Shown here: piece by piece, positions 1 to 25,032 of the stretch | Numbering within the stretch: the first letter of the stretch is position 1 | How the letters are laid out: each line of letters begins with the position of its first letter | Virus record (IMG/VR): IMGVR_UViG_3300037176_000103 | Location: 1-25,864 of that record | From: a virus | DNA: 25,864 nucleotides | Strand: one strand, 5' to 3' | Position numbers and translations under genes: made by a program | Notes under the pieces: model-generated | The model's input: the letters and a program-made list of their open reading frames with translations, nothing else | Told to the model about the DNA's origin: nothing | Database searches by the model: none

Positions 1-729
1 GACACCCCGCGCGACGTGGGGGTCCGAATGCCGAACGGCGATCACAAGGTGGTGCGGGTCAACGAAGCGTTTACCGATCCGCAGACCGGAGAGACGTATC
101 ACTACAGGCTGGGGACCGGGCGCCACAGCGTCTCGATCAGCACCGGGCCGAGCAGCAACTCCCAGCGCCAGGCCGCCAGCGAGTTCGCCGACCAGCTCGC
201 GCAGAATCAGATGGTCTTCCCGCGCATCGCGGATTTGGTGGTCAAGTTGAAGAACCTGGGACCGATCGGCGACGAGATCTCGGATCGGCTGGTACCGGCG
301 GATATCGCCGCGCGGAAGGGAGGGGCGCCGCTGCCGCCTCAGGCCCAGCAAATGATGAGCCAGCAGAAACAGCAGCTCATGCAGCAAGCGGCGCTCATCG
401 CCGACTTGCAGAAGCAGCTCGAAGCCAAACTGCCGGAGATCCAATCGAAGCAAGCCATCGCGGCGCTGCAGGAAGAGACGAAGCGGCAGGATATCCAGGC
501 GCAACTGCGCATCGCGGAGTTACAGGCCGGGGTGCAATCGAGCATCGCCAAGCTGGAAGCGATGGTGGGGTCGATTCAGCACTCCCTCGAGCTGATGGAT
601 TCGCAGGCCGACCGGGATCACGAAGCCACGCTGCAGCAGCAGGCGCAGGACGCGCAAGCGGCGGCTAATCCACCGGCAGCACAGGGGCAGGCGGGGCCAA
701 CAGCGCAGCCGTCGCCCGGTCAAGCTTAA
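1..729 (+). CDS. Portal protein, C-terminal part (P22 gp1-like), 5' truncated by window edge
   Basis: The reading frame is open from base 1, so the start lies outside the window; the internal GTG at 16 and ATG at 28 are not trusted as starts. The segment with TGPS followed by a Gln/Ala-rich helix and IADLVVKLKNLGPIGDEI (about residues 45-95 of the visible part) matches the lower wing region of P22-like portal proteins. The last ~120 residues are Gln/Ala/Glu/Leu-rich and predicted as a long coiled coil, like the barrel that closes P22-type portals, ending in a Pro/Ala/Gln tail. The portal is the dodecameric DNA channel at the capsid vertex. It is followed by scaffold and coat genes in the order of P22 genes 1-8-5, which supports the call. 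The function is inferred from family resemblance and synteny. Confidence 0.85.
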   Translation, partial: DTPRDVGVRMPNGDHKVVRVNEAFTDPQTGETYHYRLGTGRHSVSISTGPSSNSQRQAASEFADQLAQNQMVFPRIADLVVKLKNLGPIGDEISDRLVPADIAARKGGAPLPPQAQQMMSQQKQQLMQQAALIADLQKQLEAKLPEIQSKQAIAALQEETKRQDIQAQLRIAELQAGVQSSIAKLEAMVGSIQHSLELMDSQADRDHEATLQQQAQDAQAAANPPAAQGQAGPTAQPSPGQA

Positions 730-857
730 GCGGCACGAAGGGCCGCAAGTCGACGGAGTTCTGCCAAGGATCGGGAGCAAGGGCGTTCACGAACGATTCT
801 ATTATCCCGCCTATCGCGGAAGGCGTAAAAGAACCGCGGTCAAAGGAGCAAAACAGC

Positions 858-1844
858 ATGGAAGACGAAAACAGCGCGGTCCCGTCAACCGATGAAGCAG
901 CGGGCAATTCACTGGACACGATGACCGGCGAGCAACGGTCGGAGTGGCTGTTGAATGGCACGCCAATGCCGAAAGACGAAGCGGATCCGGCCCCCGCACC
1001 GAAACACAAGTCCGAGGCTGCGAAGCCTGAACCGACGCCGGCGGCGGACACCGGGAATTCAGAGGAGCCGAAACTAGGGAGCAGGGCACACCAGCGCATC
1101 CAGGAATTGCTGACGGAACGCGCGTCGCTTCGCGCGAGACTCGACCAGATCGAAGCTGCAGGCAAAAACAAACCGGCCGACAAACCAGCGGATTCGGCCC
1201 CCGCCAAACCGGCAGCGGAGACGAAAGCGGTCCCGAGCGACGGCCGGCCCGTTCCCCCCGATCCCGAAAAATGGACCGGCACGTGGGAAGAGCTGGAAAA
1301 AGCCAAGCTGAAGTACTTCGACGAATACACCGACTGGAAGATGAAGCAGCCGGAGCGCGACCGCCAGGCGGCGGATACAGCGAAGGCGCAAGCCAAGCTT
1401 ACCGAACTGCAGCAGGGCTATAAGACGCGCGCCGAAGCGGTTCTGGCGGCGGATCCGGAATATGCCGATGCGCAAGACATCATCGGAAAGTTCGTTACCG
1501 CCAAGGGTGTCGACCAGCTCATCCTGGAATCCGAAGTCGGGCCCGAGATCGTGATGCACCTCTACAAGCTGCCGTATGAAGAGCAGCAGCGGGTAGCGGG
1601 ACTTACTCCCGCGGCCCTGGCGAGAGAGATCACGCGGCTCGAAGACAAGCTCTCCCAACCCGCGGCCGCAGCCGCGGCGGCTCCTCAACCGAAACACACG
1701 AGCGCGGCTAAGAAGCCGCCCACGGAACTCAGCGGCAGGAATGCCACCAACACCGTGGACGAGGCCGAGCAGGCGCTCGAAGCAGGTGACATGGGCAAAT
1801 ACATTGCCGTCATGAACGCCCGCGCGGTCAAGAAGCCCAACTAA
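858..1844 (+). CDS. Scaffolding-like head assembly protein (gp8 position)
   Basis: This 328-aa acidic, low-complexity protein has a disordered Ala/Pro/Lys/Glu-rich N-terminal third. A helical segment (about residues 70-100) resembles a coiled coil. A charged helical middle contains W-x-G-T-W-E (around residue 138), and an Ala-rich linker precedes the basic C-terminus, which ends in KKPN. An AAAGGAG ribosome site lies 9 bases before the ATG. Its place between portal and coat genes, its length and its composition are those of podovirus scaffolding proteins, which copolymerise with the coat and leave or are degraded during maturation. No sequence motif proves this; the call rests on position and composition. 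The 128-base gap upstream contains no visible gene. Confidence 0.7.
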   Translation: MEDENSAVPSTDEAAGNSLDTMTGEQRSEWLLNGTPMPKDEADPAPAPKHKSEAAKPEPTPAADTGNSEEPKLGSRAHQRIQELLTERASLRARLDQIEAAGKNKPADKPADSAPAKPAAETKAVPSDGRPVPPDPEKWTGTWEELEKAKLKYFDEYTDWKMKQPERDRQAADTAKAQAKLTELQQGYKTRAEAVLAADPEYADAQDIIGKFVTAKGVDQLILESEVGPEIVMHLYKLPYEEQQRVAGLTPAALAREITRLEDKLSQPAAAAAAAPQPKHTSAAKKPPTELSGRNATNTVDEAEQALEAGDMGKYIAVMNARAVKKPN

Positions 1845-1884
1845 ACCGGGTCTTTTTGACGCCGCGCAAAAGGGTTAACACAAC

Positions 1885-3126
1885 GTGGCGAACACATTCC
1901 AGGTAGTCGACTGGCTTGCGGCCGAGGCCCTCAGGGGACTCGTGAACAAGCTGGCGATTGCCCCATATTTCAATACCAGTTACAACGCGGAGTACACCAA
2001 GGCCTTCGCCGTGGGCGAGACGGTCCGGGTGCCGCTTCCCCAGCGCTTCGTCATCACGAGCGGACTGGGCTACCAGCCGCAGGTGATCAACCGGCTCTTC
2101 ACGACGGTGAGCGTGGATCAGATTTTCGGCGTTCACTTCGAGTACGATTCCATCGAAGAAGCGTTGAAACTCGAACGCGGGCGGGCGGCCTTCAAGGAAA
2201 ACTACCTGGACAAAGCCATGGAACAGATGGCCCAGGAGATCGACTCCAGAGCCGCGTTATGGGCTCTGACGAATACCAACAACGTGGTGGGCGCACTGGG
2301 CACCACGCCGACGTCCTTCGACATCTACGGCCAGGCGCGCGCCAGGCTGATCGAAAACGCCTGCACGCCGGGCAAAAAGGGAATGATCGTTAGCCCGCAA
2401 ATGATGCGGACGATCGTCAGCAACAACCTGACGACTTTCAACCCGCAGGATGCGGTGGCGAAGGCCTTCCGCGAAGGCTACTACGGCGATGCGCAGGGTT
2501 TCACGTGGGACGAGAGCATGTCTCTCTACTCCCAGACGGCGGGAACCTGGCAGAACAACGTCACGGTCAACACGCCTCCCACCAACGGCGCCACTTCCAT
2601 GGTGGTGAATTGCACCAACGGCGATACGTTCAACCAAAACGATGTCTTCAGCGTTAACCTGGTCAACAACGCCAACCCGGTCACCCGGCGCACCACCGGC
2701 ACGCTGAAGCAATTCGTGCTGACCCAGAGCGTGACCGCAACGGGCGCTACGGCCACGATCTACTTCCAGGCTGGGACCCAGGGCATTCAAGGCCCGGGAT
2801 CGCAGTACCAGAATGTGGACGCGCTGCCCGTCGCGAATGCGCAATTGACACTCTATCCGGGCACGACGAGCCCCAACGGCAAATCGGGGATGAACGGCCT
2901 GGCGCTGAACCAGGACGCCTTCGCCCTGGTGGGGGTGAAGCTGGAAATCCCGAAGGCTTGCGAAATGTCGAGCGTCGCCCGCGACCCGAAGACGGGGATC
3001 GCGGTGGCCTTCCTGCGCATGATGGATCCGATCGAGCGGAAGATGGTGAACCGCTTCGACTGCCTGCTCGGGTTCGGGAACCTGTACCCGGACAACTGCG
3101 CGGTTCGCGTGCTGAGCCTGCAATAA
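1885..3126 (+). CDS. Major capsid protein, P22 coat family (gp5-like)
   Basis: The 413-aa product is close to the ~430 aa of P22 coat protein. The N-terminus (ANTFQVVDWLAAEALRGLVN) is followed by a segment with VRVPLPQRF and a stretch with FGVHFEYDSIEEAL, both typical of the P22 coat family. A central Thr/Asn/Val-rich beta region (about 215-310) could be the inserted I-domain-like part. The C-terminal region contains VAFLRMMDPIERKMVNRFDCL, shared with this family. The start is GTG at 1885 with an AAAGGG-type ribosome site upstream. It should form the HK97-fold shell. It is followed at a 55-base distance by a secreted-looking protein gene. Confidence 0.88.
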   Translation: MANTFQVVDWLAAEALRGLVNKLAIAPYFNTSYNAEYTKAFAVGETVRVPLPQRFVITSGLGYQPQVINRLFTTVSVDQIFGVHFEYDSIEEALKLERGRAAFKENYLDKAMEQMAQEIDSRAALWALTNTNNVVGALGTTPTSFDIYGQARARLIENACTPGKKGMIVSPQMMRTIVSNNLTTFNPQDAVAKAFREGYYGDAQGFTWDESMSLYSQTAGTWQNNVTVNTPPTNGATSMVVNCTNGDTFNQNDVFSVNLVNNANPVTRRTTGTLKQFVLTQSVTATGATATIYFQAGTQGIQGPGSQYQNVDALPVANAQLTLYPGTTSPNGKSGMNGLALNQDAFALVGVKLEIPKACEMSSVARDPKTGIAVAFLRMMDPIERKMVNRFDCLLGFGNLYPDNCAVRVLSLQ

Positions 3127-3181
3127 CAGCCAAAACGGAAGGGGCCGGCAACGGCCCTCTCAAGGAGAAAAACCAAACAAC

Positions 3182-4087
3182 ATGAACACTTTCAAACGAT
3201 TCGCTTTCGGCGTGGCTGGGCTGCTGCTGGCACTGATTCCGGTGCAGGCGCAGGCGCAGGCCACCTTGCCGACCACGACTCTCATTACCGCGCTCATGGC
3301 GACGGTATCGAGCAACACTCCCGGCATTTCCACCGACGTCATCCAGGTGGGCTCGACCTCGGGCTTCGTCCAGAATTCGGTGGGACAGTGGACCACTCTG
3401 CTGTACGCCGACTTCGAAGCGATGGATGTGGTGGGCGTTCTCAATGCCACCCAGGGCATCGTGCGGGTAGTGCGCGGCGCCTGGGGCACAAAGGCCAGCT
3501 ATCACAACGCAGGGACCGTAATCTATGTCGGGGCCCCGAGTTCGTTTGGCGGCTCGGCTTTCGCGGGCTCGGCTACCAGCGGCGATCAGTATGGCGCTTG
3601 CATGCCGTCGACCATTCCGGCGCTGCCGTTCATCAACATCGACGACGGCAAAATCTTCAACTGCTTCTCTTCGGGCCAGTGGGTCCAAACCGGACTCGGG
3701 ACCATGGGCGGGGCGCCGGCGCAGCTCCAATCGGATTTCTGCACGGGCACGGTGGCCACGGCGCAGACGGAGTATCTCAACGACACGGCTTGCTCCGGAG
3801 CAACCACGGCGCTGGCTCCGACGATTCAGGTCTCGTACGGGACGATCTACGGGCTGAACGTGGCATCGAGCGCGAACGTGGTGGGCGGAACTTCCGTGGA
3901 CGTGCTGACCATTTACAAGAACGGCTCGGCCACGGCCTTGACCTGTACCATCGCGGCGGCCAGCAAGACCTGCAGCGACACTACCCACTCGGTGGCCGTG
4001 AAGCCGGGCGACCAGATCACCTATCAGTTTGTGACTGCCACCTCGGACACGGCGGCCAACGTCGGCGCGTCGGTCGAGAAGCAGTAG
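3182..4087 (+). CDS. Virion-module beta-rich protein with N-terminal signal peptide
   Basis: This 301-aa protein has a classical Sec-type leader: MNTFKR, a hydrophobic core GVAGLLLALIP, and an A-x-A cleavage region around residues 23-27. The mature part is Ser/Thr/Gly/Ala-rich and predicted beta. It includes FEAMDVVG and a motif RGAWGTKASYHNAG, of the RGxxGTxAxxHxxG type often seen in phage structural proteins. Four cysteines lie in the second half (around residues 160-265), which would suit an oxidising compartment. AAGGAG lies 15 bases before the ATG. Decoration protein, host-surface protein or receptor-interaction protein are all possible; no family is recognised with certainty. A secretion signal on a gene between coat and head-completion genes is unusual. 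Confidence 0.7.
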   Translation: MNTFKRFAFGVAGLLLALIPVQAQAQATLPTTTLITALMATVSSNTPGISTDVIQVGSTSGFVQNSVGQWTTLLYADFEAMDVVGVLNATQGIVRVVRGAWGTKASYHNAGTVIYVGAPSSFGGSAFAGSATSGDQYGACMPSTIPALPFINIDDGKIFNCFSSGQWVQTGLGTMGGAPAQLQSDFCTGTVATAQTEYLNDTACSGATTALAPTIQVSYGTIYGLNVASSANVVGGTSVDVLTIYKNGSATALTCTIAAASKTCSDTTHSVAVKPGDQITYQFVTATSDTAANVGASVEKQ

Positions 4088-4104
4088 CTTTCAAGCATCA
4101 AGTT

Positions 4105-4132
4105 GGGGCGCCTTGGCGGGCGCCCCGTTTTT
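4105..4132 (+). terminator. Intrinsic terminator after the coat/secreted-protein genes
   Basis: A perfect 8-bp GC stem (GGGGCGCC at 4105-4112, GGCGCCCC at 4119-4126) with a 6-base loop is followed by G and five T. It lies 17 bases after the stop of the secreted-protein gene and before the next ribosome site at 4148. This is the strongest hairpin-plus-T-tract found in the late operon. It probably gives partial termination, so that coat transcripts exceed tail transcripts. Confidence 0.8.
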
Positions 4133-4159
4133 CCCCAAATGCAAAACAGGAGAGTTTCC

Positions 4160-4492
4160 ATGTTTGACCGATCGAAGTTGACGGGCGACGCGGCGCCCAC
4201 GCCGGTGGCCGGAGGGCTCGCGGCCGCGCCTGACGCGGATAGCAAGAACTGGATGATTTACCACCCCACCAAGGGGCACAGGGTCGTTACCAAAGATAGC
4301 CCCGAGCACAAGGCGCACCTGGGCGACGGCTGGCAGGACGACCCGATTCCGCCGGCGCCGGAACCCGCGCCGGACGAAGATCGGATCGGCGCACTCGAGA
4401 GCCTGAACATCGAAGCGGAGCTGATGGCGCTGCATGCAATAGGGGATGCGCTCGCCGGCCGGATCGCCGCGCTCGAGACCAAAAGGAAATAG
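4160..4492 (+). CDS. Small protein of unknown function between coat and head-completion genes
   Basis: The product is 110 aa. ATG at 4160 is chosen over an upstream in-frame ATG because it has a CAGGAGAG ribosome site 6 bases upstream, and because the longer version would start inside the terminator hairpin. The N-terminal half contains NWMIYHPTKGHRVVTKDSPE and GDGWQDDP, followed by a Pro/Glu-rich linker. The C-terminus is a predicted amphipathic helix ending in ALETKRK. The W-x-Y-H-P...GDGW pattern looks like a small folded domain found in phage head modules. No function is assigned. It could be a head-tail accessory or minor capsid protein. Confidence 0.7.
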   Translation: MFDRSKLTGDAAPTPVAGGLAAAPDADSKNWMIYHPTKGHRVVTKDSPEHKAHLGDGWQDDPIPPAPEPAPDEDRIGALESLNIEAELMALHAIGDALAGRIAALETKRK

Positions 4493-4498
4493 GCCGCC

Positions 4499-5185
4499 AT
4501 GTCGCTGGTATCGGACATCCTGGGCGACTCGCTGATGTACATCGGGGCATACGGCCCCGGTGAAACCGTCTCCACGGACGATCAGACATTCGCGTTGCGG
4601 CTCGTGAACCGGGTACTGGATAGCTGGAGCGCGCGAAAGCTGTCTCCGATCGGCATCAACCGGGCGAGCTATGGGCTGAGCGGAGCGGGGTCTTATACCT
4701 TCGGATCGTCCGGGACGTGGGTGGCTTCCACTCGGCCGATCAAGATCAAGGCGGCGTCGGTGTTAGCGGCGAACGGGATCGAGAAAGAGTGCCGCATCGC
4801 CAGCGCGGAGCAGTGGGCGGCGGTAGCGGACAAGACGCGCACCGGGATTTTCGTCGAGGATCTGTACTGGGATGGGGGCTTCCCGAGCGGGAACGTATAC
4901 GTTTCGCCGATACCGGCGGGCGGCAACGCGATCCTGTACACCTACCAGCCGATCGGCGACTTCGCGAGCCTGACGGACACGGTTAGCCTGCCCGCGGGCT
5001 ACGAGCGCGCGTTGGTGATCAGCTTCGCTCTGGAGCTGTGCATCCCGTTCGGGCGGCCGATTCCGGACGGATTGCCGCAACTGGCGCAGGAAGCGCTCAT
5101 GACCATCGCCAGCCTCTCGGCCGAGATTCTGGGCACACCGGTTCCCCAGCCGGCGCCGCAAGCGCCGCAAGGACCCAAGCAGTGA
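4499..5185 (+). CDS. Head-completion adaptor, P22 gp4-like (first of two)
   Basis: The 228-aa product is helical at the N-terminus (SLVSDILGDSLMYIGAYGPG; then DDQTFALRLVNRVLDSWSAR). This is the pattern of gp4/gp6-type adaptors, with a domain that counts conserved Asp/Asn/Leu before VLDSW. A beta region with YTFGSSGTW and RPIKIKAASV follows, and after it a second part with GNVYVSPIP and YERALVISFALEL. These adaptors bind below the portal and close the DNA-filled head. The last 30 residues are Pro/Gln-rich. The stop overlaps the GTG start of the next gene (GTGA), and the next gene is also of this family. The family call is by pattern recognition and synteny with P22 gene 4. Confidence 0.8.
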   Translation: MSLVSDILGDSLMYIGAYGPGETVSTDDQTFALRLVNRVLDSWSARKLSPIGINRASYGLSGAGSYTFGSSGTWVASTRPIKIKAASVLAANGIEKECRIASAEQWAAVADKTRTGIFVEDLYWDGGFPSGNVYVSPIPAGGNAILYTYQPIGDFASLTDTVSLPAGYERALVISFALELCIPFGRPIPDGLPQLAQEALMTIASLSAEILGTPVPQPAPQAPQGPKQ

Positions 5186-5931
5186 CTTTAGCGGACCTCC
5201 TCAACAGCGCGGCGAAGGCGCTGGGCAAGCTGCGCTCCGGAGGCGGGTTGTGCGCGAGCGAGCTGGCGGACGGTCTGACGGTAGCCAACGGCCTGGTGGA
5301 TTACTGGCTCACCCGGAAGGCCTTCGTCTATACGACGCGCATGGACGAATACACGTTCAGCGACAAAGGACCGCCGGATGCGAATAACCCGGCGGTGTAC
5401 GAGTTGGGTCCGGGCTCGACGGACTGGCCGGGCAGCGTGCGGCCGACGCGGATCGAGCGCGCGAACATCATCCTGAACGACAGTTCGCCGGGAGTCTTCA
5501 TTCCGCTCGATATTTTGGACGTCGACCAGTGGGCGGACATCTCTCTGGAGCAAATGCCGGTCACGCTGCCGACGAAGATGTACCCGGATTACGCGAACCC
5601 GAACTGCAATCTGTATTTCTGGGGCCAGCCGACGCTGCCGTACATCCTGCAGCTTTTCACCTGGCAGCAGCTCGCGGCCTTCGCCGCACTGGGGGAGGAA
5701 ATCGCCTTCCCGCCCGGTTATTACTCGGCGTTTCTCTACAGCCTGGCGGAGGTATTGGGGCCGCAGTGGAACGTCCAGGTTCCGCTTATGGTGACGGCCC
5801 AGGCGCGGAAGGCGCGGGCCGGGATTCAGAGCCTGAATTCGCGGGCGCCGAAGCTGCACACGCGGGACGCGGGGATGCCGCCGAGCACCCAGCGGACGCC
5901 TTACTTCAATTACCGCACGCGAGGATTTTGA
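5182..5931 (+). CDS. Second gp4-like head-completion adaptor
   Basis: The 249-aa product starts at GTG 5182, which overlaps the previous stop as GTGA and has AAGGA upstream. The longer open frame to 5038 lies inside the previous gene and is not used. The N-terminus (TLADLLNSAAKALGKLRSG, then LTVANGLVDYWLTRKAFVY) repeats the helical pattern of the preceding gene. Both genes then share the RPTRIERAN/RPIKIKAAS type strand and a late motif with a Pro-Gly/Ala-Gly-Tyr before a hydrophobic helix (FPPGYYSAFLYSLAEVLG here; LPAGYERALVISFALEL there). The two look like diverged tandem paralogues. One may be the adaptor and the other a tail-collar component. The stop is directly followed by the TTG start of the gp10-like gene. 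Confidence 0.78.
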   Translation: MTLADLLNSAAKALGKLRSGGGLCASELADGLTVANGLVDYWLTRKAFVYTTRMDEYTFSDKGPPDANNPAVYELGPGSTDWPGSVRPTRIERANIILNDSSPGVFIPLDILDVDQWADISLEQMPVTLPTKMYPDYANPNCNLYFWGQPTLPYILQLFTWQQLAAFAALGEEIAFPPGYYSAFLYSLAEVLGPQWNVQVPLMVTAQARKARAGIQSLNSRAPKLHTRDAGMPPSTQRTPYFNYRTRGF

Positions 5932-7857
5932 TTGCGCTTTGACGCCTTCACTTCCGGGTTCTATTCGTTTCCCTCGCTGGACGCGGCCAGCCAGGCGGCG
6001 ATGAACTATTACCCCGACCTGGTGGAATGGGCCGCGCCGAGCAGCGCCAACCCCGGAGGCGCGGAGAAAGCCCGCAAGGTGCTCTCTCCCACGCCGGGGC
6101 TCTCCTTGTATGGCACGCTGCCCACCGGGCCCATACGCGGGCTGTGGGCGGGGGAAAACCGGCTATTCGCGGCGGCAGGCTCATTCCTCTACGAGGTGTT
6201 GGGGCCTTCGTCTTTCACTAGTCATGGGCTGATCGGTAACGACGGCAACCCGGTGCAGATCATTTCGAACGGCGACCAGTTGTTCGTGGTGTCGGCCGGA
6301 TTGGCCTATTGCGACAACGGAGCGGGCGCGCAGGTGTGCCAGTTTTCCTCCCAGCTCTACGATCTCCAGATCGACGCGGCCACGGGAGGTCTCACCGGAG
6401 ACACGGGGGGAATCTTCAATTCCACGGACGTCGGTATGACGGTGCAGATCACCAATGCGGGACTGCCTCCGTCGGGCAGCGGGGCGGCGTTCACGATCCA
6501 ATCTCAAGTCATCACCTCGGTGAACAGCCAGGGCGAGGCCTTCGGAGCGGCTTCGTGGGGCGTGGCCGGATCCATGGAAGGTACGGGGGTGGAATGGCTG
6601 GGAGCGCCACTGGCACTCACCGGACTCTCGATCACCGCGGGCGGCGGACTCTCGGGCTATACCTTCACCAGTGCCGATGTGGGCTGCCTGATGCAAATCA
6701 CGGGGGGCGCCGGCTTCACCGTGGCATCGCAGACCATCACCTCGGTGGTGGGCGGCGTAGCTTTCGGGAATTCCGACTGGGGCTCCAACGGCTCGACGGG
6801 AGGCGCCGGCACGCTGTGGCAGGGACAAACCCTGGCGGCCGCCAACGGGGCCTTTTTGGATAGCAGTTGCTTCGCCGCGCAGCCAGGCTCGAAGCTGGTC
6901 TACTACTCCGCCATCAACGACGCCACGAGCTGGGACCCGCTGAACTTTTTCAGTAAGGAGGCCTATCCGGACGCGGTTGCGGCACTGATGGCCGACCATG
7001 AGCAACTGTATATTCACGGGGCGCTGGAATCGACGGAAGTATGGGCGAGCACCAGCAGCGGGACGAATCCCTTCCAGCGGAACCCGAGCTACTTCATGCA
7101 CTACGGCAACGGCGCGCCCTACGCCACCTGCCGGCTGAGCGCGGGAGTGGCGTGGATCGGCGGCGACGTACGCAGAGGCGAGAGGGTCGCTTTCCTGGCG
7201 TTAGGTTTTGTGCCTCAACGGATTTCGACGGCGGCGATCGAGAAGGCCTGGGCGGCATATGCCACGGTGCAGGACGCGGTGAGCTACACCTGCATCATGG
7301 ACGGCCACGAGTTCTGGGTCATCAGTTTCCCCACCGGCAACGCGACCTGGGTGTACGACGCGACGCTGGGCGAGTGGCACCAACGGGGCTGGTGGAACGG
7401 AACGGGCTGGGACCGGCAGCGCGGGGCGTTCCACGCATGCATCGGCGTCGACACAATCGACGAAGTTCATTACGTGGGCGACTGGCAGAACTACAACCTG
7501 TACACGATGTCGAGCGCCTACGTGGAAGACAACGGGGTGCAGATTCACAGGCGCCGGCGGGCTTCCCACCTGTGCAACGAGAAAAAGTGGCGCTTCTATT
7601 CGCTGTTCGAGCTGGACTGCGATAACGACGACGCGGACGTGGACGGCGCGCCGCCGCGAGTGCGGTGGCTGCGCTGCGGCCGGAGTCGCGACCGGATCTT
7701 CCAGATCGACGACGATGGCGACGGAAACCTGACGCTAAGCTATTCCGACGACAACTGCCTCACGTTCACGACTCGCGCGTCGATTAGCGTATCCAGCGCG
7801 GCGGCCGCCATTACCATCGTGACGGCGTACCTGGAATTCACGGAAGGGACGGGATAG
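5932..7857 (+). CDS. Tail hub / DNA-stabilisation protein, P22 gp10-like
   Basis: This 641-aa protein is longer than P22 gp10 (about 470 aa). Start TTG 5932 directly follows the previous stop and has GAGG 7 bases upstream; the next in-frame ATG at 6001 would drop a conserved-looking N-terminus. Features of the gp10 type: an N-terminal NYYPDLVEW segment, PGLSLYGTLPTGPIRGLWA with repeated blade-like strands, an LYIHGALESTEVWASTSSG segment, IASIEK-like AAIEKAW, HEFWVISFPTGNATWVYD, and a C-terminal DRIFQIDDDGDG region. Residues ~150-306 are an extra Gly/Ser-rich segment containing two similar modules (ITSVNSQGEAFGAASWG and ITSVVGGVAFGNSDWG), which explains the added length. gp10 forms the hub that carries tailspikes and needle and seals the packaged genome. 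Confidence 0.85.
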   Translation: MRFDAFTSGFYSFPSLDAASQAAMNYYPDLVEWAAPSSANPGGAEKARKVLSPTPGLSLYGTLPTGPIRGLWAGENRLFAAAGSFLYEVLGPSSFTSHGLIGNDGNPVQIISNGDQLFVVSAGLAYCDNGAGAQVCQFSSQLYDLQIDAATGGLTGDTGGIFNSTDVGMTVQITNAGLPPSGSGAAFTIQSQVITSVNSQGEAFGAASWGVAGSMEGTGVEWLGAPLALTGLSITAGGGLSGYTFTSADVGCLMQITGGAGFTVASQTITSVVGGVAFGNSDWGSNGSTGGAGTLWQGQTLAAANGAFLDSSCFAAQPGSKLVYYSAINDATSWDPLNFFSKEAYPDAVAALMADHEQLYIHGALESTEVWASTSSGTNPFQRNPSYFMHYGNGAPYATCRLSAGVAWIGGDVRRGERVAFLALGFVPQRISTAAIEKAWAAYATVQDAVSYTCIMDGHEFWVISFPTGNATWVYDATLGEWHQRGWWNGTGWDRQRGAFHACIGVDTIDEVHYVGDWQNYNLYTMSSAYVEDNGVQIHRRRRASHLCNEKKWRFYSLFELDCDNDDADVDGAPPRVRWLRCGRSRDRIFQIDDDGDGNLTLSYSDDNCLTFTTRASISVSSAAAAITIVTAYLEFTEGTG

Positions 7858-7858
7858 G

Positions 7859-8311
7859 GTGTCGCTGCCAACCCTGACGGCCTTTTTTCAGGGGCAAGCG
7901 TATACGCCGCTGAATTCGCCCTGGACCGGATTCTTCAGCGCACTGGACGCGTTGCTGGGCGCCAGCGGGACGGCGGTAGCGGCGGAGACGTATTCGCTGG
8001 GCGCGGAAGGGACGCTGGCCATTGCGAGCGACGTGGCGCCGAAGACTTACGTGATGACGAGCGTCACGCCCTCCACATTGCGGCTGGATCTGAAGCAGGC
8101 TCCGGTGGGAGCGAACCTGGTGGTGGCGCTGAGCTACTACACCACGCCGGGAGAGACCACGCTGGTAGCCACCTTCACGGCGGGGCCGGGCGAGTTATCG
8201 GATACGCAGACAAGCACGGTGGCCGTTCCGGCGGGGGCGTGGTGGGAAGTGGATATTACCAGCGTGGGGACGACGTTTCCGGGGTCGGATCTGACGGTGA
8301 CGGTGCAATGA
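7859..8311 (+). CDS. Small beta-sandwich-like tail protein of unknown function
   Basis: The 150-aa product starts at GTG 7859, two bases after the gp10-like stop, with a purine-rich ribosome site (GGAAGGGACGGG) upstream. The N-terminus TLTAFFQGQAYTPLNSPWTG resembles short capping segments of tail-associated proteins. The rest alternates hydrophobic and small polar residues (TYVMTSVTPSTLRLDLKQAP, LVVALSYYT, TSTVAVPAGAWWEVDITSVG), consistent with an all-beta fold such as a carbohydrate-binding or fibre-head module. It has no cysteines or signal peptide. The next gene starts 4 bases downstream. It is probably part of the tail tip or fibre; the specific role is unknown. Confidence 0.68.
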   Translation: MSLPTLTAFFQGQAYTPLNSPWTGFFSALDALLGASGTAVAAETYSLGAEGTLAIASDVAPKTYVMTSVTPSTLRLDLKQAPVGANLVVALSYYTTPGETTLVATFTAGPGELSDTQTSTVAVPAGAWWEVDITSVGTTFPGSDLTVTVQ

Positions 8312-8315
8312 CACC

Positions 8316-11300
8316 ATGAGCGCGATGAGCAAACTCGATCCGCGGTACGCCATCAGTCTGAACGGCTTCGACCGGCGCGGCGCGGTGGCCAGCATCAACA
8401 ATGCTTCGGCGTCCGGTTTCACTGTTTCCGGCTGCTGGTCCGATCAAGCGGATTTTGCGGTGGTCTATCTCTGGAACGCGGACGATCTGTACGGGCACTT
8501 GTTCACGAGCCGTTACCTACCGGATTTCTCACTCGCGGGAGTGACTCTGGATTTCGACCTGGCTGTAACGGGCTGCATGAATCCGACCAGCGCGAAATAC
8601 CCGAGCGTGCCATGGAACGCGCTGAGCTACATCACCAGCGCGGAGGCCTCCGGGACGGTGGCATTGCCGGCGCCGACGTCGACGACGGGAGCGATGGCGG
8701 CGAGCTGCAGCTTTACGGTGGCGGGCACGCCGACGATCTACGACCGGATCCAGTTGGTTTACCTGGGCAATGTGTTGGCCGACCTTTCGACGATCGCCAC
8801 GGGGCAGACTCTCGCGACGGTGGCCACCAACCTGGCGACGCTGATTAACGGTCTGAGTTCTTCGACCGTGCCGATTATGGCGACGAGCTCCGGGGCGACG
8901 GTCACCCTCACTTGCACGCAGCCGGGCAGGGACGGCAACGGGATCCAGTTGCTGTCGATGTACAAGACCACGGGCAATACGCAGCTCTACCCGACGGCGA
9001 GTTCATCAACAGCGAGCGGACAGACGGGGAAACTGACGGGCGGCGCGGATCCCACGTCGATGCACTACCACTTGGATTTCTCGGCCTTGGGCTTGGCGAG
9101 CTGCCGGCAGATCTGGCTGACCCTGGCGCCGTGGCTGACGTACGACTCCGGGACGGTGAACCCTTCGCTGGTGGCTTACGCGCCAATGGAGTTTTCGGCT
9201 GTCTTCGCGAATTGGACGGTGGCAGATCCGAACGGGGTGACGCCGCTGAAGATCGCGGGGCCGGGTTCGGTGACGATCGGCAACCGGGACGCCTGGACGC
9301 AATACGCCGGCACGGGCTGGGCGCGGCAAGTGGGCGACTACTTCGAGGGCTTCGCGCAGCAATCCGCGAATGCGGGCGACACGGTGACGGTGGCTTATTC
9401 GTGCCAGTACACGCACAATCTGTACCTGGGGACGGCGCTTTCGACGACGGGTGGGGAATTCGGCGTTTCGGTGGACCGGGGCGCGGCGGCGGTGGTGAAT
9501 ACTTACGCCGATGCGCTGGCGGCATTCGCCGGCCGGCGGCTCATTGCGAGCGGAGTGGCGGCGGGAATTCACCTGGTCACCTTCACGGTGGCGTCGGGAG
9601 CGTGCCTGTTCGATTACTTACAGGCGGCGGTGCTCTCGAATCCGGTGGCGCCGGCGGCGACTTACGCGGGGGTCAATTGCGCGTGCGACTACGACACCGA
9701 TCAGACGTATAAGATTCCGCCGGCGCGGGCGCTGTTCGTCCTTTCGCAGATGGGTTTCGGGGGGGACATCGACTTTTACGCGGGAGTGTTTTTCGCCCTG
9801 AAGCGAGTGAGGAACGGCGGGAACTTTCACCAGGCGACGGTAACTCTTGCGGGCACGATCGGGGTGGGCAATTCGTTCGGGGTGGGCGCGGACACGATCT
9901 GGCTTTCGCTGGGCGGACCGCAGGGGCACGGCACGCCGATCGGCGGGGCGACAAGCATGGGGGGAAACCCCACGGGCACGACGGTGAGCCCCTGGAACGC
10001 GGTGACGGTATTCGGCGCCGCGGCTTACCCGGCGGACACCTTGACCACGCTGGCGCAGCGGATGGTGAACGCCATCAACGGTACGTTCGTGGGAATTTGC
10101 GCGGCGCCGACAACGACGGCCGGGCAGTTCACCATTACCGTGCTGAGTCCGATTAACGGATTCAGCCTCGACGTTTCGCTCAGCGCGGGCGCGAGTATGA
10201 CGCTAAGCGTCGCCGGCGACATCGGGACCGCGGAGCTGGTGGGCGGCAACGAAGGCACCTGGGCGGTGGATTCGAGCCAGGCTTCGCCGTTGAACCGCGG
10301 CTTCAGGGATTACCTGGCGGACTTCGCCGGCCTGGTGCACGCGGCCGGGCGGACGATGACGGTGGCGTTCTCGCAAGAATTGCTGGCGCCCCCGGATCTG
10401 AATACGAGCGTGGGCGCCTGGTCGCAGCGGTTCCCGGACGGTGCGAGCGTGTTGACGGATACGGGGTTTGGGAGCTGGGGCGCGGGCGTGGTGGATGGAG
10501 TGAGCGGGTCGGGACCGCAGACAGTGGAACAGATCGGCCACGGCTACATCACCGGCAACACGGTACATGTGGCGCAGGGGGCGTCGGGCGCCGTGTGGGC
10601 TGCGACCGTGACCGACAGCAACCATTATCGGCTCACCACCCTGGTGAGCGGGACGAGTTTCACGGCGGCGGCGGGGGCGACGACGCTGATCGACCTGCAG
10701 ACGAGCCAATGCACCTTCAATGCGGCGACGGTCACGGCATATTTGGCGCTCTGCTATGTGCAGGCGGCGGACATCCTGGCCGCGGCGGGGCTGGTGCCGT
10801 GGCTGCAATTCGGGGAAGTGGGCTGGTGGTTCTACAGCGAGCACATGAGCGAGGTGGTGGGCTACGCTTCCAACGCCTCGCCCATCGGCATCGGCACAGT
10901 GGAGCCGCACAACCTGGCGACGGGGCAGAGCGCGATTCTGGCGGGGGTGAAGGGGAACACGGCGGCCAACGGGACCTGGCCGGCCATCGTGGTGACGGAC
11001 CCGACCCATTTCACGCTGACGGGATCGAGCGGGAATGGAAGCTATGTGGCCGGGACCGGGACCGCATCGGGCGGCGGGATGGCCTATTACGATGCCTGGG
11101 CGGTCTCGGCCGCAGCGGCGGCGCTGGGGCACGCGCTGGGCAATTACTGGACCCAGGACGATGCGCCGGTAGCGGCGGATGCAAACTGGCTGGCCGGCGC
11201 GATCGCCACGCACATCGCCACGATTACCGCGGCGGTGCTGGCGGCTCAGGCGGGCGCCAAATTCGAGTTGCTGTATCCGCAGGACGTGAACCGGGCGAGC

Positions 11301-18149: not shown

Positions 18150-18986
18150 ATGAAAATGAAATGGCTTTTGCTTGGGGCTCTGGCCCTGTGCGCGCCGGTG
18201 GGTGCGCAAGGGCTGACGACGGTGCAGGACAGTCTCTACGCCGCCGACGGCCGGTATTGCGCCGGCGCCGTGAATCTATCGTGGCCGATGTTCCTGGCGC
18301 CGGACGGGCGCACGGTATATGCGGGGAATTGGGACTATCCGATCGCGGCGGCGGCCAACGGGCTGAGCGTCACGCTGGAGCCGGGGCAATACACGGCCAC
18401 GTACAACATCACGCCCACGGGCTGCGCGCCGGCGGCGGAGCAGTGGGTGGTGCCGGCGAGCGCCACGCCGGTCAATCTGGCTTCCGTGCGGGGGGCACCT
18501 TCCTCCTCGACCTCGACATTGGTTTTTGTGGACAACTCGGTTCCGGCGGGAACGCTGAACGGGGCGAATACAGTTTTCACTTTGCCGTCCACCCCAAACC
18601 CGGCGCTAAGCCTGAACCTGTACCTCAACGGGATGCTGATGGAAGCGGGAAGCGATTATACGCTTGCCGCCGCGACGGTGACGTTCATCAACGGGGTGGT
18701 GCCGGGAGCGGGAGACGCTTTACTGGCGAGCTACCGGACGGGATCGAGCGGCGTGGCTTCGGTGGACAACTCGGTTCCGACGGGAACGCTGAACGGGACG
18801 AACGCTGTGTTTACGCTGGCATCCGCCCCAAGTCCGGCGTTGAGCCTGGAGCTGTACCGCAACGGGCTGCGGTTGGCGGCCGGTGGGGACTTTACGTTGT
18901 CCGGTTCCACCGTGACGTTCGGCGCCGGCGCGATTCCGCAGCCGGGCGATGCGCTGCTGGCGAGCTACCGGACCGGCGGAATCTGA
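18150..18986 (+). CDS. Secreted-looking repeat protein at the end of the late operon
   Basis: The 278-aa product has a signal peptide: MKMKW, hydrophobic LLLGALALCAPVGAQ, with cleavage likely after VGA (about residue 19). A first domain (~20-115) has two cysteines (residues ~30 and ~91). Two tandem 78-residue modules follow (residues ~127-199 and ~205-277), each with VDNSVPxGTLNGxNxVFTL, a LxLYxNG strand and a GDALLASYRTG end. Such modules occur in phage fibre and decoration proteins. AGGAGG lies 6 bases before the ATG; an 8-codon open frame spans this ribosome site. The 3' end overlaps a convergent gene by 22 bases. Export to the periplasm or cell surface during infection, or a misread leader helix, are the alternatives. 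Confidence 0.68.
   Translation: MKMKWLLLGALALCAPVGAQGLTTVQDSLYAADGRYCAGAVNLSWPMFLAPDGRTVYAGNWDYPIAAAANGLSVTLEPGQYTATYNITPTGCAPAAEQWVVPASATPVNLASVRGAPSSSTSTLVFVDNSVPAGTLNGANTVFTLPSTPNPALSLNLYLNGMLMEAGSDYTLAAATVTFINGVVPGAGDALLASYRTGSSGVASVDNSVPTGTLNGTNAVFTLASAPSPALSLELYRNGLRLAAGGDFTLSGSTVTFGAGAIPQPGDALLASYRTGGI
18528..18746 (+). repeat. Tandem protein-coding module, copy 1
   Basis: First of two diverged copies with a 234-base period inside the secreted repeat protein. It is anchored on GTGGACAACTCGGTTCC at the start and CTGGCGAGCTACCGGAC near the end. DNA identity is high at both ends and lower in the middle, which suggests an old duplication kept partly by conversion. Confidence 0.8.
18762..18980 (+). 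repeat. Tandem protein-coding module, copy 2
   Basis: Second copy, 234 bases downstream of the first and in the same frame. It ends just before the stop codon of the gene. The middle third differs at many codons from copy 1, while the boundaries are almost identical. Confidence 0.8.
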
Positions 18987-19394: not shown

Positions 19395-19757
19395 TCACTT
19401 GACGTAGTTGCGTAAGCGAAACCAATCGCGATTGAGGCGCTGGACCAGGTGGCCGCAGTCGAGGCCGGTGGCGCGCTCAAACTCGCGTTTCCCAACGCGG
19501 TGATACTCGATGTGCTCCTCGGGCGTGAGAGGTACGCAGGAATAATCGGAGGCCTTTTGGCGCATGCCCCCGTCGGTGCCGGTGTGGGCGGCTTCGCACC
19601 CGGGCAGCCCCGAGACGGCCGAAGGCAGCGAGCGAATCCAGGCGCGGTACTTCCAGTTGCGGGCGGGACCGCGGCGAGCCGGCCGGCGGGGGGCGCGGGG
19701 GCGCTGGGTTTCTCCATGGATGGCGTAGCGGAGATAGCGGACCACGCGCCGGTTCAT
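19395..19757 (-). CDS. HNH-like nuclease, DUF968/Ref-type
   Basis: The 120-aa product starts at ATG 19757, overlapping the upstream stop as ATGA, with AAGGAA 7 bases before. The first 35 residues are Arg/Pro-rich and basic. A W-x-x-W-I-R segment leads to the core: C54-x3-H58, GTDGG at 60-64, KASDYSCVPLTPEEH at 68-82 and Y-H86. This order (C..AH.G..GG...K..D..C.PL...H...H) is the pattern of phage DUF968/Ref-like HNH proteins, which bind zinc and cut DNA in recombination contexts. The usual first CxxC is reduced to a single Cys here. The C-terminus (LDCGHLVQRLNRDWFRLRNY) is helical. Nuclease activity is inferred from family only. Confidence 0.72.
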   Translation of the reverse strand: MNRRVVRYLRYAIHGETQRPRAPRRPARRGPARNWKYRAWIRSLPSAVSGLPGCEAAHTGTDGGMRQKASDYSCVPLTPEEHIEYHRVGKREFERATGLDCGHLVQRLNRDWFRLRNYVK

Positions 19758-20583: not shown

Positions 20584-20655
20584 CCAGGCGGGACTGGGGG
20601 GCCCTTGCGGCGTCGGGTTTATTGTGAGGGAAATCAAGAGAGGACGAATCGAGCC

Positions 20656-21390
20656 ATGAGGGCAGCGATCTACGCGCGGGTCTCGAAGGAGCGCTGCACC
20701 CGAGAGCACTGCGGCCATGTCCACGACGAGCATGCTGGCCGGCATAAGCGCTGCGCGCACCCACGCTGCGAGTGCCGGGGTTACCAGGGGCAGGACCCGG
20801 AGAATCAGCTTGCGGAGTTGCGGCGGTACGCGGCGGCGCAGGGGTGGGAGGCTGTCGAATACATCGACCGCGCGACCGGGAAGAACACGGATCGGGACGC
20901 GCTACAGGCGATGTTCGAAGACGCCAGCCGAAAAAAATTCGATGTGCTGCTGGTGTGGGCTCTCGACCGGTTGACGCGCGAGGGCGCCCTGCCGGCGTTG
21001 CTGCACGTGAAGCGGCTCGCGGACTATGGGGTGAAGTTCGAGAGCTACTCCGAGGCGTTCCTGCGCACGACGGGTCCGGCCGGCGAGCTGCTGCTGATGC
21101 TGTTCGCCTGGATCGCGAAACAGGAGAGCCAGCGAATCAGCGACCGTACGAAGGCCGGCCTGGCCAGGGCCGCGACCAAGGGTGTGCGTCTGGGCCGGCC
21201 GTTCAAACTGTTTGACCGCGGCCGGGTGCCGGAGCTGCGGAAGCAGGGCATGAGCTGGCGGGCGATCGGGCGGAAACTCGGCGTCGGAGAGTCCACCCTG
21301 CGAATGGCGCAAAAGCACGCTCCGGAGGGTGCGCAACAAACCCCTTCCCAGAAACGTAGAAAAGCGACGCATTCTAAATCCCTCAGGTAA
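20656..21390 (+). CDS. Serine recombinase (resolvase/invertase type) with Cys/His-rich insertion
   Basis: The 244-aa product starts at ATG 20656 with AGAGGA upstream. The resolvase domain is clear: AIYARVS with catalytic Ser10, QDPENQ at 46-51, the RD at 80-81, VLLVWALDRLTR with D104, R105 and R108 of the active site, and a helix with ELLLMLFAWIAKQES. A Hin-like helix-turn-helix follows at ~197-226 (LRKQGMSWRAIGRKLGVGES). Total length is near the ~200 aa of small resolvases/invertases. The extra length is an insertion at residues 13-46 and a basic C-terminal tail. The insertion has Cys14, 19, 33, 38, 40 and six His, and probably binds zinc. Likely roles are site-specific recombination in integration, inversion or multimer resolution. 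Large-serine-integrase domains are absent. Confidence 0.88.
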   Translation: MRAAIYARVSKERCTREHCGHVHDEHAGRHKRCAHPRCECRGYQGQDPENQLAELRRYAAAQGWEAVEYIDRATGKNTDRDALQAMFEDASRKKFDVLLVWALDRLTREGALPALLHVKRLADYGVKFESYSEAFLRTTGPAGELLLMLFAWIAKQESQRISDRTKAGLARAATKGVRLGRPFKLFDRGRVPELRKQGMSWRAIGRKLGVGESTLRMAQKHAPEGAQQTPSQKRRKATHSKSLR

Positions 21391-21811: not shown

Positions 21812-22003
21812 TTACGCTTCGTCCTCGACGATTTCGGTGGAACCCTTGTAGCCGAGTTCCGCGAGTGCTTGCATGGCGGTTGCTTTGACGAGTGCTTGCA
21901 TGGCGGTTGCTTTGACAATCGCGAAATTATGCTCGTTGCAAGGGACTCCGAAGGATTCGCAGATTTCGGTTTCGGCGAAGTAAATCGCGTTACTTCGGTC
22001 CAC
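21812..22003 (-). pseudogene. 3' part of an interrupted 85-aa phage protein
   Basis: It reads VDRSNAIYFAETEICESFG, then PCNEHNFAIVKATAMQAL duplicated in part, and ends GYKGSTEIVEDEA, 63 residues without a proper start. When joined to the fragment at 22963-23028 it continues exactly in frame from KLAPGVY to VDRSNAIYF. This gives a small acidic protein of a type common in phages (WxKxxxxLAPGVYxD...EIC...GxP.xxxN). Codons 36-53 of the fragment region carry a perfect 27-base tandem repeat. Its separation from the 5' part by 959 bases inactivates the gene in this sequence. Confidence 0.72.
21863..21916 (+). repeat. Perfect 27-base tandem duplication
   Basis: Two adjacent identical 27-base units (21863-21889 and 21890-21916), each starting GAGTGCTTGCATGGCGG. 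On the minus strand this is an in-frame duplication of nine residues (VKATAMQAL) in the interrupted small gene. Slippage or a recent duplication is likely because the copies are identical. Confidence 0.9.
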
Positions 22004-22486
22004 ATCAAGCCGATTCACAAGAACCGGGTGCGCGATAACTTCGATTGGCTCTTTGCCCAAATCGTGGCGCGCGAACTGGCCGGGGACAAGCGCATCACGT
22101 TTGCTATTTCGGAGTCGCCCGACTTTGCGTACAGCGTGTACAACACGTCCTACCACCTGACGCACGGTGACCAAGCCAAGGGTGGCTCTGGCATCGCGGC
22201 CCAGCTTTCGCCACTCATGATTATGGTGGCCCGCAAGATGAAGCGCTTCAAGTTCGATTACTTGGTGTGCGGCCACTGGCACCGGCTGTCAAGCTTCATG
22301 AAGGTGCGCTGCAACGGGTCCCTGGTGGGCTACAACGAATACGCCTTCAACGGCAATTTCGAGTACGAACCGCCGCAGCAGGACCTGTGGCTGACGGACC
22401 CGCAACACGGCGTGGTGGGGTCCTTCCCCATTCACGTTCAATCCAGTCAGGAACCGTGGCTGCTGAAAGCCAAGCAGGCCGCGTAG
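22004..22486 (+). pseudogene. Phage metallophosphoesterase, C-terminal half only
   Basis: Coding begins at the block edge with KPIHKNRVRDNFDWLFAQ, corresponding to the region just after the GNHGR metal-binding motif of phage calcineurin-like phosphoesterases. It then has LTHGDQAKGGSG (His metal ligand), the GHWHR signature at 22271-22285, and the family-typical NGSLVGYNEYAFNGNF and EYEPPQQDLWL. Stop TAG is at 22484. The N-terminal half with the first metal ligands (DxH, GD, GNH) is absent, so it cannot be active. The open frame continues upstream to 21635 only by chance, through sequence that is the antisense of other small genes. Such enzymes are common single-gene accessories of phages. Confidence 0.82.
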
Positions 22487-22496
22487 GGAACCAACG

Positions 22497-22880
22497 ATGC
22501 AACCAACACTGTTGCTGCAACCTGAAGGGTCCAGCCTGTGCGGTCAGGTGTGTGTGGCCATCGCAGCGGGGGTGTCCCTGGACCGGGCGATTGAAGCTGT
22601 AGGGCACAGTAAGAAGCGCGGAACCACCACAGCGGAAGTGGTGGCCGCGCTGCGCGCGCTTGGGCTTCCTTGCGCTGACCGGATGAAGCCAGTGGGCCGG
22701 GCAAAACCGGTGCTTCCTAAGCGCGCGTTGCTCTGTATCCGCAGGCTGGAAGGCAACAAGCGTTCCCGGCTGTGGCACTGGATGCTGACGTGGGACGGAA
22801 CGGTCTACGATCCGGGTGGACGCTGGCCTGACGGGTATCCTGGGTTCCGCATTACCAGCTACCTGTCAATAACAGACTGA
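22497..22880 (+). CDS. C39-like cysteine-peptidase-fold phage protein
   Basis: The 127-aa product starts 10 bases after the phosphoesterase stop; the ribosome site (GTAGGGA) is modest. The order LLLQ-x6-CGQVC (Q8, C15), then a helix, RALLCIRRLEG, WHWMLTWDG (H94) and VYDPGG (D105) is that of C39-like papain-fold peptidases: oxyanion Gln, nucleophile Cys before Gly, His, then Asp. Phages often carry small stand-alone versions of unknown role near head or accessory genes. The gene is intact and travels with the phosphoesterase fragment inside the foreign block. Peptidase activity is inferred from the motif order only; the substrate is unknown. Confidence 0.7.
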   Translation: MQPTLLLQPEGSSLCGQVCVAIAAGVSLDRAIEAVGHSKKRGTTTAEVVAALRALGLPCADRMKPVGRAKPVLPKRALLCIRRLEGNKRSRLWHWMLTWDGTVYDPGGRWPDGYPGFRITSYLSITD

Positions 22881-22937
22881 ATGGCCGGGTTGCCAGTGAG
22901 CTAACTTGCTGAAACGCGGGCATTAGGCACAACGGAC

Positions 22938-22962
22938 ATGTCCCGCACCCACGTGTCAGAAG
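22938..22962 (+). pseudogene. First eight codons of a third gene of the foreign block
   Basis: An ATG at 22938 followed by SRTHVSE runs into the block edge at 22962. Beyond the edge the frame meets a stop after 11 codons. It is most simply the beginning of the next gene in the donor phage, cut by the join. The ribosome site (AACGGAC) is weak, so this is uncertain. Confidence 0.35.
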
Positions 22963-23028
22963 ATACACTCCGGGCGCGAGTTTGCGCATGCCCTTAGCCC
23001 AGGCCGGGGTGTGCGTGGGGCGGTTCAC
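22963..23028 (-). pseudogene. 5' part of the interrupted 85-aa phage protein
   Basis: GTG 23028 overlaps the stop of the preceding gene as GTGA, with AGGAG 8 bases upstream, so this is a real start. The 22 codons read MNRPTHTPAWAKGMRKLAPG then VY, the usual beginning of small phage proteins with WAK and LAPGVY. After the join the frame runs into the foreign block for 36 more codons to a stop at 22852, which would give a 58-residue hybrid with no biological sense. The remainder of the gene is at 21812-22003. Confidence 0.75.
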
Positions 23029-23440: not shown

Positions 23441-23748
23441 GGCATCACCCAGTCTGTGGGCTTGGTGGGACCCTGACTCTTACCGGTGCGCTCGGCGCGG
23501 TACTTGCGGAAGTCGATGATTAGACCCATAGCTTGCTCCTTGCCCGATCCCACGTGGTTAAGGACCCAGTCAAAGATAAAACTGTCCTCCTCGGCGGCTT
23601 CGGCCGCTTCGAGAATGGCATGAGCGTGTTGGCGGGCCTGCTCGGTATCCATCTGGCAGACTATTTCGGTGCCCCGCAGCAACTGCACGAATGGCTCACC
23701 TTTTTGGTTGATGCCAGATTGGTGCCACAGAATATTGTCGGGACTCAT
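23437..23748 (-). CDS. Small acidic helical protein of unknown function (103 aa)
   Basis: The ATG at 23748 has GGAGG 6 bases upstream and an ATGA overlap with the previous gene; the frame could extend to 23799 but would lose this site. It begins MSPDNILWHQSGINQKGEPF, followed by VQLLRGTEIVCQMDTEQARQ, then an Ala/Glu-rich helix (AHAILEAAEAAEEDSFIFDW) and KEQAMGLIIDFRKYRAER. The N-terminal strand pair followed by a helix resembles small phage proteins with a TExxxARxxAxxIxEAAEAAE helix. It has no catalytic motif. Confidence 0.62.
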   Translation of the reverse strand: MSPDNILWHQSGINQKGEPFVQLLRGTEIVCQMDTEQARQHAHAILEAAEAAEEDSFIFDWVLNHVGSGKEQAMGLIIDFRKYRAERTGKSQGPTKPTDWVMP

Positions 23749-23972
23749 GCGGCCTCCGGAGGCGGTGCAATCCGCTGGTAGGTGCAAGCACGCGGACACC
23801 GCGTTTCATCGGGCTGGTAGCCGAGGGTTTCCATTTTGCACGGGCTGTAGCTGTCGAACACGACCGCGCACTCGTTGCCGCGCTGGTCGACGAGCTCGCC
23901 GAACATGCGCAGGATGGCGTGCGAGCGGCCGTAATACCGGCACGCCGGCGCGGGAGCGAGGGCGGGGCTCAT
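23745..23972 (-). CDS. Small Cys-containing protein (75 aa)
   Basis: The ATG at 23972 overlaps the preceding stop (ATGA), and its stop overlaps the next ATG. It contains YYGRSHAILRMFGELVDQRG, FDSYSPCKMETLGYQPDE and C60-x3-C64, plus Cys at 11, 36 and 46. A purine-rich site (AAAGGCGGG) precedes the start. It may be a small metal-binding protein. No family recognised. Confidence 0.58.
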   Translation of the reverse strand: MSPALAPAPACRYYGRSHAILRMFGELVDQRGNECAVVFDSYSPCKMETLGYQPDETRCPRACTYQRIAPPPEAA

Positions 23973-24501: not shown

Positions 24502-25032
24502 TCACACGAGCCCGGCGATTCGCGCCTTGTTGGCATCGATTTCGGCGAGCGTGAGACCTTGAAGCTTCTTCGTGCGCGGCGGCCAAAGTTCCATGAGGGC
24601 TTTAACCGCGGCGATTCGTTTCTGGTGCCGTTCGCGATCTTTCTGGTTGAGCACCTTCAGGTATCTCTCCAGGTCCTCGTAATGGAGCTTGGAGCGCTCG
24701 ACCTTTTCCCCGTCTCCCACGGGCACGAGATCGGGAAGCTTTATGGCAATTTCCCGGATCTCCGGAAATAGCCAGGCGGCGGCGGATTCGTCGCTGCGAT
24801 CACGCTCGCGAAGCCTCTTCACCGTCCGGATAAAGTATCGGCTGCGTAGAGTCTGGTCGAGTTCGGCGAGAAAATCGGGCTCGGCGAGAGTTACGATTTC
24901 CTGCACAAGATTGGCGGCCGGCAGGTTGGGGAAAAGGGCCATGGTGTTGCGGACCAGCTCTTCACACTCCTTGCCACTGACATGGCGTGCACTGCCGTGC
25001 GTGTAGCTTTCTTGCAACAGTCTGTTTTTCAT
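24502..25032 (-). CDS. Helical protein of unknown function (176 aa)
   Basis: The ATG at 25032 has AAGGGG 4 bases upstream. It is mostly helical and rich in Leu/Glu/Arg/Lys, for example LVRNTMALFPNLPAANLVQE and HYEDLERYLKVLNQKDRERH. The segment PEIREIAIKLPDLVPVGDG sits in the middle. There are no metal or nucleotide-binding motifs and one cysteine. The charged helices may form a coiled coil or a scaffold for DNA. It is transcribed with the HNH gene. I do not recognise the family. Confidence 0.65.
   Translation of the reverse strand: MKNRLLQESYTHGSARHVSGKECEELVRNTMALFPNLPAANLVQEIVTLAEPDFLAELDQTLRSRYFIRTVKRLRERDRSDESAAAWLFPEIREIAIKLPDLVPVGDGEKVERSKLHYEDLERYLKVLNQKDRERHQKRIAAVKALMELWPPRTKKLQGLTLAEIDANKARIAGLV

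Follow-up and report, generated by a model that had tools for sequence, protein, structure and literature searches.

A small gene of a P22-like phage is split by a 959-bp block of inserted, apparently foreign phage-like DNA (positions 22004 to 22962, plus strand), and removal of the block restores a frame of 85 amino acids that four distinct homologues in related phage contigs carry uninterrupted. The window analysed here is the whole of the linear IMG/VR contig IMGVR_UViG_3300037176_000103 (25,864 bp). As a kind of event this is ordinary (or an artefact), and unusually raw; the evidence for the empty site is unusually good. A fairly probable origin is homology-independent end joining, in which a linear piece from within the genome of a second phage was captured in one event inside the small gene.

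The interrupted gene and its intact relatives

The recipient is a P22-like phage. The window contains a P22-type coat gene (Pfam P22_CoatProtein match), and its right end holds small early-type genes in a leftward run. Relatives are common: IMG/VR contigs encode coat proteins 70–83% identical to that of the window, and one of these contigs belongs to a MAG of the Bryobacterales (Acidobacteriota). An acidobacterium is therefore a possible host, a guess made only from the MAG with this related contig. Two other IMG/VR contigs, L005 and L006, match the left part of the window, at 100% over 9,671 bp (1 to 9671) and 99.98% over 6,443 bp (815 to 7257), respectively; both stop before the insert, and were dropped as witnesses of the empty site for that reason. 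L005 extends about 8.1 kb past the left end of the window. A nucleotide search of the window's first 8 kb against the phage collection returned no match, and a defence-system search returned none.

The small gene is the last of a leftward operon, and its start codon, GTG, overlaps the TGA that ends the gene upstream. The block divides it into a 5' part of 22 codons (22963 to 23028, minus strand) and a 3' part of 63 codons plus stop (21812 to 22003, minus strand). As originally predicted, excision lets the two minus-strand half-frames run together (23028–22963 plus 22003–21812); the product reads MNRPTHTPAWAKGMRKLAPGVY up to the join and VDRSNAIYFAETEICESFGVPCNEHNFAIVKATAMQALVKATAMQALAELGYKGSTEIVEDEA beyond it. 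The insertion probably inactivated the gene.

An uninterrupted version elsewhere had been named beforehand as a test of the prediction. As a lone query against the viral_contigs and phages collections the joined protein found no relative; L025/L026 were reached instead through a shared gene (24502 to 25032 in the window), and the resulting two-sequence profile then picked up L033, L034, and L035. These four distinct homologues (L033:1487-1723, L034:3914-4138, L035:1936-2169, and L025:7008-7232 with L026) are 32–45% identical to the joined protein and all read across the join. They share the pattern P.WA.GM.K..PG.Y...E...GVP....N. Searches of PHROG with the joined and L034 proteins, and of Pfam with the joined protein, gave no match. 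Against a profile built from the four homologues alone, the joined protein scores 76.2 bits, compared with 35.9 for the 5' part and 29.9 for the 3' part. Gene context also agrees with that of the window: in L034 and L035 the small gene directly follows a homologue of window gene 23745–23972; an HNH homologue also lies upstream in L034; and L035 has a recombinase in common with the window, together with the genes at 19395 and 15223. In L033, nucleotide similarity (82%) breaks off at 22961, at the join. A copy of the small gene was not detectable in the relatives G003 and G004 (38 and 30 kb).

The join had been described as perfect, from 22963 directly to 22003. Its open frame stands; exact zero loss is less certain. 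The four-homologue profile was used to score 6,020 open-frame joins around the site. The claimed join came 10th, 2.2 bits under the highest score, and none of the 20 best lies more than about 16 bp from the claimed breakpoints, which are therefore right to about 10–15 bp. At the join, L033 has the same length as the joined protein and the other homologues are one residue shorter. To judge from these alignments, the recipient may have gained or lost a few codons at the site.

The same 85 codons contain a second structural change: a perfect 27-bp tandem duplication in the 3' part (21862 to 21915, minus strand), absent from all four homologues, which is in frame (VKATAMQAL twice) and lies in the C-terminal half. 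The structural model of the small-family protein is of low confidence (pLDDT 74), with three short strands and two helices.

Gene content of the inserted block

The block runs opposite to the genes that surround it, and begins in the middle of one of its own. Positions 22004 to 22486 (plus strand) encode 160 codons plus stop, the last 40% or so of a metallophosphoesterase/exonuclease whose N-terminal part is missing; the match is to positions 250–396 of 398 in phrog_284. Alignment to full-length homologues places the block start just after the GNH motif, in agreement with the original reading. The homologues come from L003 (56%), L039 (52%, an Acidobacteriota genome), L004 (43%), and the podovirus MW202713 (39%).

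An intact gene of 127 codons follows (22497 to 22880, plus strand). Pfam and PHROG searches with its product gave no hit. Its AlphaFold model (pLDDT 85) matches the ComA peptidase domain in Foldseek (E 3.5e-4, TMq 0.65), as expected from the earlier description of one intact C39-like gene. Homologues are found in L002 (60%), L030 (56%), and L031 (36%), and the residues Cys15, His94, Asp100, and Asp105 are invariant in four C39-like homologues. By its predicted structure the protein is a C39 peptidase fold with Cys-His-Asp residues; peptidase activity is putative. The block ends in what may be the first eight codons of a putative third gene (22937 to 22962, plus strand), a stub for which a homologue search found nothing.

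These features indicate phage-like DNA of other origin than the recipient. The GC content of the block genes (0.604) differs weakly from that of the recipient (0.632–0.645). In a nucleotide search of the insert region against the phage collection, the only match covered 85 bp, in the phosphoesterase. The search for a donor phage with the exact phosphoesterase–C39 order found none. That order, proposed as a check on the block, is approached in L030, where positions 8983–10381 encode a metallophosphoesterase, a 99-aa protein, and a C39 homologue in a row. Because of this row the neighbourhood is phage-like, and it is possibly a conserved one; however, the agreement is loose, as the L030 phosphoesterase belongs to another family (phrog_221) and one gene intervenes.

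The block resembles a phage moron in that it is extra DNA with an intact reading frame, absent from relatives and opposite in direction to its surroundings. Morons lie between genes and typically bring their own promoter and terminator (PMC3029335), whereas this block splits a gene and has no promoter-like site. A search of the block for a σ70-like promoter detected none, and the sole terminator-like match lies on the opposite strand and scores under the shuffle mean. The moron explanation was rejected on these grounds.

The joins and their origin

Mobile-element features are absent from the block. No terminal inverted repeats were found at its ends, no transposase among its reading frames (the phosphoesterase and the C39-like gene), and no target-site duplication longer than 2 bp at the joins, so a transposon or insertion sequence was rejected. 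A self-splicing group I or group II intron was likewise rejected, in the absence of Rfam intron hits even at permissive E-values. The only sequence common to both joins is the dinucleotide AT. In simulated random blunt insertions, an ambiguity of at least 2 bp appears in 18% of cases, and the AT therefore carries no signal. All of this is as first described: a foreign phage fragment splits the small gene without mobile-element machinery. A finding of block homologues with the same flanks and a mobile element, which had been named as the result that would count against this description, was not made.

With repeats, intron, transposase, and site symmetry all absent, one-event homology-independent joining remains. 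Both hallmarks of an end-joining insertion are present: minimal homology, in that only AT is shared, and an empty site, documented by the four distinct uninterrupted homologues. A break would have opened in the P22-like genome inside the small gene; a linear fragment from the interior of a second (soil) phage genome would have entered that break in one event, presumably in a cell that was co-infected or lysogenic; and both ends would have been sealed by end joining, with Ku/LigD of the host or some other ligase. In the order to which the MAG with the related contig belongs, 55 of 100 sampled genomes carry Ku; the MAG itself gave no Ku hit.

An insertion of this sort falls within known phage biology. 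It is accepted that illegitimate recombination contributes to gene flow in phages, NHEJ being one of its forms (PMC8136500; PMC3029335 for illegitimate recombination). As in illegitimate-recombination mosaicism, foreign phage DNA is joined without homology and the breakpoints, when they form, ignore gene boundaries (PMC3029335, PMC8136500). The joins of viable phages, by contrast, tend to lie near gene boundaries after selection, whereas the join in the window is raw: it disrupts a gene of the recipient and at least one of the donor. The chance is a little better than even that the insertion is both real and recent, and thus a fresh, unselected end-joining capture of a random internal fragment with the C39-type gene as potential cargo. 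That gene is intact; any expression of captured cargo would be putative. The original prediction went further and proposed a cargo-capture mechanism. This was overstated: illegitimate recombination in phages has already been described (PMC8136500, PMC3029335), and use of the cargo has no support.

Library and φ29/MDA chimeras also join unrelated DNA at a short overlap. A co-occurring phage fragment could have been joined in vitro or in silico, during library preparation, amplification, or assembly, and this is a possible if rather unlikely source of the block. The window is one uncurated IMG/VR contig, and no other record with either join was found; both parts look undecayed, as would be true of a very young or an artificial join; chimeras are known among the large contigs of simulated viromes (<5%, PMC5610896); and where coverage of the contig is thin, one chimeric molecule in the library would give an identical picture. 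However, a chimera would need two joins, each almost free of shared sequence, whose host sides are only about 10 bp apart in a contig of 25 kb. Assembly chimeras normally form at shared sequence, and MDA chimeras usually at overlaps of 5–8 nt (PMC4595205); here each join shares at most 2 nt and returns to almost the same host base. Since the flanks resume so close together, two independent misassemblies are very unlikely. A single insertion event is favoured for the same reason, together with the near absence of shared sequence and the longer overlaps of MDA products. On balance it is quite likely that the insertion is real rather than an artefact.

If real, the window cleanly captures the raw step that the illegitimate-recombination model of phage mosaicism takes for granted, in which breakpoints are random and selection has yet to purge the damaged genes. 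It then also predicts that scans for split genes with intact relatives will uncover more raw insertions. If an artefact, automated annotation wrongly credits the window phage with a peptidase and a phosphoesterase. On either reading, searches should use the excised join, not the annotated halves.

End joining by capture of a fragment is favoured over two further routes, in which the bases at the joins would have a role. In the first, replication would have switched template twice, copying 959 bp of donor before returning to the original strand. The two bases of microhomology would suit such a switch, as would the nearby 27-bp duplication, a product of slippage in the same gene. A homology-free return within a few bases of the point of departure would be unusual, however, and the route is quite improbable.

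In the second, a neighbouring serine recombinase (20605 to 21390, plus strand) would have inserted a circular fragment site-specifically, and AT would be the 2-bp core of the crossover. Serine recombinases exchange strands at a 2-bp core, the gene lies about 600 bp from the insert, and AT is common to both joins, although 18% of random insertions would show a 2-bp match by chance. The sites themselves argue against such an exchange: dyad symmetry is lacking (complementary positions number 3 of 10 in the host site and 1 of 10 in the donor site, against a background mean of 2.7), and the reconstructed host and donor sites are unlike each other. Moreover, relatives with a homologous recombinase keep the small gene intact. 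The recombinase thus has very little probability as the agent.

Two minor features deserve mention. The recombinase has a Cys/His-rich N-terminal stretch (CTREHCGHVHDEHAGRHKRCAHPRC) in common with L027. The gene at 18150–18986 contains an imperfect tandem repeat of 234 bp, in 1.9 copies (18528 to 18973), which amounts to a duplicated domain.
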